Made by a program: the position numbers and the translations under genes. From Undibacterium sp. (GTDB lineage: Bacteria > Pseudomonadota > Gammaproteobacteria > Burkholderiales > Burkholderiaceae_D): a DNA stretch of 64,000 bases. The DNA lies in the NCBI RefSeq assembly GCF_030651495.1, contig NZ_JAUSFI010000023.1:1-64000 (forward strand). Direction: 5' to 3'. Positions 15,836-61,892 of the stretch are shown here, piece by piece (positions within the stretch are counted from its first letter, which is position 1; every line of letters begins with the position of its first letter). The notes beneath the pieces were generated by a model, which was not told the DNA's origin, ran no database searches, and saw nothing but the letters and a program-made list of their open reading frames with translations.

Positions 15836-15892
15836 CAATAAAAAAATCCGGGTGAGTAGCAATACTCCCCCGGATTTTTTTATTTTCATGCC
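15836..15892. terminator. Bidirectional intrinsic terminator after livF
   Basis: AAAAAATCCGGG pairs with CCCGGATTTTTT around a short central region that also pairs (GAGTA with TACTC). A-run on one side and T-run on the other make it usable from both strands, serving livF on the plus strand and possibly the minus-strand hydrolase gene that ends at 15968. Confidence 0.85.
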
Positions 15893-15895
15893 CAC

Positions 15896-15943
15896 TGCGC
15901 ATGTATTTAGTGCGCTGCTAAAATATACTGGTGGGGAGTATAT
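15896..15943 (-). repeat. Dispersed two-hairpin element, copy A
   Basis: Read on the minus strand it runs ATACTCCCC-N3-AGTATATTTT, then GCGCA-N8-ATGCGCA. The same order of blocks and near-identical spacing recurs at 25537-25581 and 61779-61824. Each block pair (ATACT/AGTAT and GCGCA/TGCGC) is self-complementary, so the element could form two small hairpins. It lies between the terminator and the 3-hydroxyisobutyryl-CoA hydrolase gene. Confidence 0.6.
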
Positions 15944-25536: not shown

Positions 25537-25581
25537 ATACTCCCATGAGTATATATTTACTGCGCATATAGAATATGCGCA
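25537..25581 (+). repeat. Dispersed two-hairpin element, copy B
   Basis: ATACTCCC-N3-AGTATATATT is followed by GCGCA-N8-ATGCGCA, the same block order as the copies at 15896-15943 (minus) and 61779-61824. It sits just downstream of apt and before that gene's terminator. Confidence 0.6.
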
Positions 25582-25627
25582 ATCTGTATGGTTTTTTACT
25601 ATACTCCTCCTATTTATCTGAATTTTC

Positions 25628-25666: not shown

Positions 25667-25716
25667 CATGACGGCAGATATTTCGTTGAGTGTACATTTG
25701 CGTTATACTGCGGGTC

Positions 25717-25781
25717 TTCCAAGGAGCGTTGCGACAGGGTCTACCCCGCCAGGCTTGGAATCATCACAACCGCGCTCACGT
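25717..25781 (+). promoter_or_regulatory. S-adenosylhomocysteine (SAH) riboswitch
   Basis: The leader matches the known ahcY-associated SAH aptamer: CCAAGGAGCGTTGCGAC, then CCAGGCTTGG, then CAACCGCGCTCAC. CCAAG (25719-25723) pairs with CTTGG (25754-25758) and GAGCG (25724-25728) with CGCTC (25773-25777), giving the aptamer's pseudoknot-like arrangement. In this class SAH binding raises expression of the SAH-degrading gene. The aptamer ends about 30 bases before ahcY and its AAAGGAGGG ribosome site, so control could act on translation start. A possible -10 TATACT lies at 25704-25709. Confidence 0.9.
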
Positions 25782-25809
25782 TACTTTTTTCAATCGAAAG
25801 GAGGGCGTG

Positions 25810-61778: not shown

Positions 61779-61824
61779 ATACTCCCCTCTAGTATATTTT
61801 GTTGACGCAATCAGCATATGCGCT
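61779..61824 (+). repeat. Dispersed two-hairpin element, copy C
   Basis: ATACTCCCC-N3-AGTATATTTT is followed by ACGCA-N8-ATGCGCT, matching copies A (15896-15943, minus) and B (25537-25581). About 25 bases downstream AGGGGAGTAT (61850-61859) is an inverted match to its first block, so a larger stem could enclose the copy. Confidence 0.6.
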
Positions 61825-61892
61825 AGTGATGGTGTTTTTTATAAAAATAAGGGGAGTATGTCTCCCCGCCTAGCATTGAGCGAGAACCTGGC

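Follow-up and report, generated by a model that had tools for sequence, protein, structure and literature searches.

What is a short, palindrome-rich block of sequence that recurs in the gaps between genes of an Undibacterium chromosome? The first-pass annotation of the window (the whole 64,000-nucleotide stretch of DNA analysed here) described three dispersed copies of a unit of about 45 bases, composed of two self-complementary block pairs, and proposed a small mobile or regulatory repeat family with a two-hairpin structure. The three copies are present where it placed them and exceed chance expectation: the pattern ATACTCCC-N2-6-AGTATAT has three matches in the window, against none expected from 100 shuffles, and 20 exact matches genome-wide, against none for the reversed control. 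The blocks described are real, but they form only the left part of an element of 77–81 bp (about 80 bp), which consists of ATACTCCCC-N3-AGTATATTTT, a middle palindrome, a T/A-rich spacer and a previously missed third block, GGGGAGTAT, in which the first is inverted (Table 1). On the evidence set out below, it is fairly probable that the copies are composite protein-binding sites in the DNA, putative landing places for tetramers of a DUF156 protein, and neither RNAs nor mobile elements.

Table 1. Positions of the element copies in the window, their parts, and the insertions found in two copies of a congener.
Feature	Position	Strand	Evidence or remark
Copy A, entire, 80 bp, between two convergent genes	15862..15941	-	cmsearch 76 bits, E 6.9e-12
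Copy A, left site ATACTCCCCACCAGTAT, candidate CsoR/RcnR-type operator palindrome	15925..15941	-	sequence; TAC-N9-GTA rule and C-tract
Copy A, middle palindrome GCGCA-N9-TGCGC	15897..15915	-	sequence; clade-specific palindrome
Copy A, right site GGGGAGTAT, doubling as intrinsic terminator arm (about 15843-15881)	15862..15870	-	sequence, fold
Copy B, entire, inverted right site; gap between apt-like gene and SAH riboswitch-ahcY	25537..~25610	+	cmsearch 38 bits, E 7.5e-4
Copy B, left site ATACTCCCATGAGTAT	25537..25552	+	sequence
Copy B, middle palindrome GCGCA-N9-TGCGC	25562..25580	+	sequence
Copy B, right site, inverted: ATACTCCTCC (ATACTCC at 25601-25607)	25601..25610	+	sequence
Copy C, entire, 81 bp; gap between Lrp/AsnC-like regulator gene and permease-like gene	61779..61859	+	cmsearch 83.8 bits, E 1.4e-13
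Copy C, left site ATACTCCCCTCTAGTAT	61779..61795	+	sequence
Copy C, middle palindrome ACGCA-N9-TGCGC, with degenerate left half	61805..61823	+	sequence
Copy C, right site GGGGAGTAT	61851..61859	+	sequence
IS30-family insertions, at nearly the same point in two element copies of G014	L385:900-2090; L386:1000-2115		

The inverted right site of copy B also occurs in the orthologous copies of three other species (G058, G015 and G013; loci L199, L200 and L201), and thus represents a stable variant. Matches restricted to the left end in the source genome (G000) likewise include variants with reversed sites. The right ends of copies A and C form hairpins together with flanking DNA (for copy C at about 61851-61872), followed in copy A by a clear T tract, which suggests that they are locally reused as terminators; at the orthologous locus in G042/G049 a terminator likewise incorporates the end of the element. 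Copy B is closely followed by a SAH riboswitch (25715-25784, plus strand; RF01057, 55.7 bits, E 1.5e-7) ahead of ahcY. Elsewhere in the source genome, one rearranged copy, which contains the palindrome ATACTCCCATGGAGTAT, immediately precedes a lactoylglutathione lyase-like (gloA) gene (L019, near 1436-1517; G000:C170).

A covariance-model search of the kind suggested in the first-pass annotation bears out the proposed repeat family: a model built from 15 full copies identified about 47 copies in the source genome, and more were found in congeners. Using a broader model, we found 20 to over 100 copies in 15 of 44 congeners (at least 106 each in two of them), 1–4 in 11, including G050 with a single weak match, and none in 18. 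Close relatives of the high-copy group can carry few copies, as in G021 (two) and G006 (none; this assembly is 65% complete, and the divergent DUF156 gene discussed below was likewise not found in it). A clade with genomes of 6.3–6.7 Mb possesses a sole copy, between genes for a SIS-domain (sugar isomerase-like) protein and an ABC sugar-binding protein (loci L060, L061, L265–L267, L269, L270 and L272); this locus is occupied in high-copy species too and is the most widely shared of all. A strict-pattern scan of 84,980 prokaryote species, with one genome per species, returned no match outside Undibacterium: all matches were to Undibacterium records or to contigs of two Burkholderiales MAGs, and these contigs have their counterparts in congeners G020 and G017. 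A search of viral contigs gave no matches. Within the set of papers searched, none mentions both Undibacterium and CsoR, and the one that combines Undibacterium with "repetitive element" describes a typing method.

As the annotation had observed, all three window copies lie in gaps after genes, and 118 of the 119 copies examined are intergenic. Among the 108 copies with both neighbours assigned, 35 are in convergent gaps, 9 in divergent ones and the rest in co-directional gaps, where the element is found in both orientations (27 sense, 37 antisense) at a median distance of 60 bp from the upstream stop and 128 bp from the downstream start. The excess in convergent gaps is modest and only suggestive when compared with the background: in a subset of loci the convergent-to-divergent ratio is 19:4 for gaps with the element and 21:15 for element-free gaps of the same loci (p 0.085).

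Single copies can be folded into hairpins, and in the genus-wide alignment the middle stem exhibits 48 double changes against 25.9 in shuffled alignments. Together with the intrinsic terminator formed by the right end of copy A and its flanking DNA, this could be taken as a sign of a two- or three-stemmed structured RNA, acting as a 3' UTR element, a terminator or a small RNA. Closer inspection reveals, however, that the genus-wide covariation arises mainly from switches between clades: the middle palindrome is GCGCA-N9-TGCGC in the G000 group, TTGTCCA-N9-TGGACAA in G014/G057, and has other forms in U. aquatile and its relatives. Within genomes the changes are not compensated. In 80 copies from G057/G014 the overall pairing is about equal to that of shuffled sets, with one of eight pairs, an outer one, nominally above them (p 0.01). 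In 27 copies from G000 (windows picked by consensus similarity, a mild bias) there are no double changes at all; the right half, TGCGC, is nearly fixed, and the left half varies without compensation. Covariation of the end-to-end stem does not exceed that of shuffles, the orientation relative to genes is variable, as described above, and an Rfam search returned the SAH riboswitch alone, with no match to the element. We regard a structured RNA as very improbable. The self-complementarity reported earlier thus stands for the primary sequence but is not conserved as RNA structure, and the two-hairpin interpretation has to be given up. Switches at the clade level without compensation within genomes are better explained by palindromes that are read by a protein, with a specificity that changes from clade to clade. 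Between G057 and G014, 4 of 120 positions differ in the half-sites of the middle palindrome, and 13 of 107 in its loop. The DUF156 protein introduced below does not account for this palindrome, which is probably read by a second partner.

The suggestion of mobility also fails to agree with the distribution of copies. When 15 copies from G057 were compared with the complete genome of G014, 14 were found at the same place, the flank pair of the remaining one was not found, and no empty site was detected. Copy C, at the Lrp-AEC locus, occupies the same position in six species, in intergenic surroundings that are no longer similar, and many further loci are common to diverged species. Since positions are shared between species and no empty site was found, the element is immobile at present. 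It could still be a REP/BIME- or MITE-like repeat, spread in the past by a transposase (RAYT or another), whose ends are conserved owing to transposase binding or to that spread. Its inverted ends, intergenic bias, high copy number, restriction to one genus and clade-specific variants are all consistent with such an origin, and nearly all congeners have RAYT-like genes. These genes also occur in element-free genomes, however, and of ten RAYT loci scanned with the element model a single one (in G020) has an element nearby. At two of the RAYT loci, L253 and L255, a single-copy RAYT-like gene has nearby GGGACATAG repeats, which are unrelated to the element. No target duplication is evident in the flanks of copies. 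In two of the 14 copies shared with G014, an insert of about 1.1 kb lies just right of the middle palindrome (Table 1), as insertion sequences do in REPs (compare PMC1525189). We considered these inserts as an autonomous carrier of the element and rejected them: they are an IS30-family insertion sequence with ends of its own, and apart from them we saw no larger copy with a gene of its own. The IS30-family sequence itself carries AGGGGGAGTATATCC, the right-end motif of the element, near one end. The search for a transposase, which the first-pass annotation had called for, yielded no carrier element, and we consider a transposase-spread repeat unlikely.

The element resembles REP/BIME sequences with TnpA-REP (RAYT) in being dispersed, intergenic, palindromic, present in high copy number and a target of insertion sequences, but it differs from them in consisting of single units of about 80 bp with fixed anatomy, at positions shared between species. 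A GTAG or CGTC tag next to the hairpin is among the REP/BIME features named in PMC3733652; an alignment of 71 copies contains no such tag. Assignment to this class was rejected, because the RAYT gene is neither co-distributed with the element nor, with one exception, flanked by it. With MITEs the element shares shortness, inverted ends and the lack of coding capacity, but this class was rejected as well, since there are no empty sites and no target duplication in the flanks; no parent element was found either, and the ends are under purifying selection (see below). ERIC-type elements are intergenic sequences of about 100 bp, with a limited taxonomic range and an obscure origin. Ours is likewise intergenic, of similar size and taxonomically limited, but it has a different sequence and a candidate binding protein.

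That candidate emerged from the ends of the element. According to PMC3902906, operators of the CsoR/RcnR (DUF156) family consist of a single G/C tract with inverted TAC/GTA at a spacing of 6–9 bp, and tandem sites occur for RcnR. The left end of the element fits this definition: ATAC-N8/9-GTAT is present in 194 of 195 scored copies, with a C tract in most of them, degenerate in the G014/G057 clade. The likeness to the RcnR operator of E. coli (TACT-G6-N-AGTA) thus extends to the inverted TAC/GTA repeat around a C/G tract, and to the presence of more than one site per region, as in tandem operators. The right site, GGGGAGTAT, is found in either orientation and is often a half-site only. The GTAT-to-GTAT distance is 62–63 bp in 172 of the 195 copies (range 61–64), which corresponds to six helical turns and would place both sites on the same face of the helix. 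Divergence between G057 and G014 amounts to 2.4% of positions in the end motifs and to 12% in the flanks (p 3e-12), which indicates purifying selection on the ends. The fixed partner site six turns away and the middle palindrome are additions with respect to the known operators.

Searches for DUF156 proteins in the genus revealed two classes, a classic one (~76–88 bits) and a divergent one (50–63 bits, 102–105 aa), the latter encoded in the source genome at G000:C126:4803-5114, where the product has 104 aa. Of the 44 congeners, 26 have the divergent gene, 26 have the element and 25 have both, and 17 of the 18 genomes that lack the divergent class are element-free (Fisher p 4.6e-10, a co-distribution partly inflated by shared ancestry). 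The exceptions are G050, with one weak element match and no divergent gene, and G059, which has the gene and its promoter site and no element. The distribution of the classic paralogue does not track the element. In an AhcY tree, genomes with neither gene nor element fall into several separate lineages, requiring at least 3–4 changes (one of these lineages, G006, is only 65% complete), so the association does not go back to one single event. Presence of the gene is not tightly coupled to copy number, as G021 has the gene and only two copies of the element.

The promoter of the divergent gene contains an ATACT...AGTAT-type palindrome (ATAC-N-GTAT) in all 20 genomes fetched, one of them deviating by a single base in the GTAT arm. 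In most genomes it lies about 65 bp ahead of the ATG, in a promoter that is otherwise not conserved, and the protein thus apparently binds its own promoter. Several elements of G014 have the promoter-type palindrome ATACTCNNTACAGTAT as their left site, which ties the promoter of the DUF156 gene directly to the element. This autoregulatory-type site probably predates the element, since several orthologues in other genera of the family have a similar one. A supposed second operator 47 bp upstream of the DUF156 domain was rejected, as it corresponds to the codons of MADTPP. ATACTCC, which forms part of these codons (e.g. L395:1804), is about 73 bp away from the promoter palindrome, near the spacing of the element, probably a coincidence of codon use.

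The divergent protein belongs to the CsoR/RcnR/FrmR (DUF156) family: it matches PF02583 at 60.4 bits (cut-off 22.8), its AF2 model (pLDDT 82.5) has the three-helix CsoR fold, with Foldseek matches to InrS, CsoR, CstR and FrmR, and the DNA-binding RLXR motif of helix 1 (R26-L27-A28-R29) is invariant in 19 of 19 sequences. Known members bind their effectors through a Cys-His-Cys triad (CsoR) or Pro2 and a Cys (FrmR). In the divergent protein, Cys50 is kept in 18 of 19 sequences, the other two positions do not form the copper triad, and the Pro2 of FrmR is absent. It also scores far below the cut-off of every NCBIfam equivalog. The Undibacterium system shares with the CsoR/RcnR systems a protein of DUF156 fold with RLXR, whose gene has the operator-type site in its promoter, but this protein stands outside the named equivalogs and is without the copper ligand triad.

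We propose that the left end of each copy serves as a full CsoR/RcnR-type operator (ATACT, C/G tract, AGTAT), and the right end, 62–63 bp away on the same helix face, as a second, weaker operator half-site. The divergent DUF156 protein, encoded elsewhere in the genome, would bind both ends as tetramers, and two operator-bound tetramers could wrap or bridge the intervening DNA. The word "regulatory" in the first-pass annotation may thus be retained in the sense of a putative protein-binding site, judging from the operator match, the co-distribution with the DUF156 gene and the promoter palindrome. DUF156 proteins usually act as a local switch of one operon, and the known CsoR/RcnR operators serve one or a few promoters, whereas the element occurs in 40 to more than 100 dispersed copies, mostly behind genes. 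If these copies formed a classical regulon, with the gene adjoining each of them under repression or activation by the DUF156 protein on an effector cue, the autoregulation-type site at its own gene, the most widely shared copy with its sugar isomerase-like and sugar-binding neighbours, and the copies close to a downstream start would all find a place. Promoter-type, divergent gaps hold just 9 of the 108 copies, however, the median distance is shorter to the upstream stop than to the downstream start, and the loci shared between species are of diverse function (apt/ahcY, pyrC, gpsA, trp, rne, dut), which makes a regulon of this type rather doubtful. We favour an architectural or polymerase-roadblock role at the ends of transcription units as the likely one over promoter regulation, because the sites number in the dozens and lie mostly behind genes, in either orientation, and rarely in divergent promoters.

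Tentatively, one may envisage that a member of a family of metal- and stress-sensing repressors has been co-opted as a chromosome architecture protein with sequence specificity, which occupies bipartite sites behind genes and bridges their two operators across six helical turns, with a second, fast-changing partner reading the middle palindrome. If so, a simple repressor would have turned into a genome-wide organiser of DNA, through dozens to more than 100 dispersed, conserved and phase-locked double operators. As a single genus spans genomes with none, one, about 40 and more than 100 sites, this transition is directly testable in Undibacterium. With the divergent DUF156 protein there would also be a specific candidate for the partner of a family of intergenic repeats, sequences that often have no function assigned to them.
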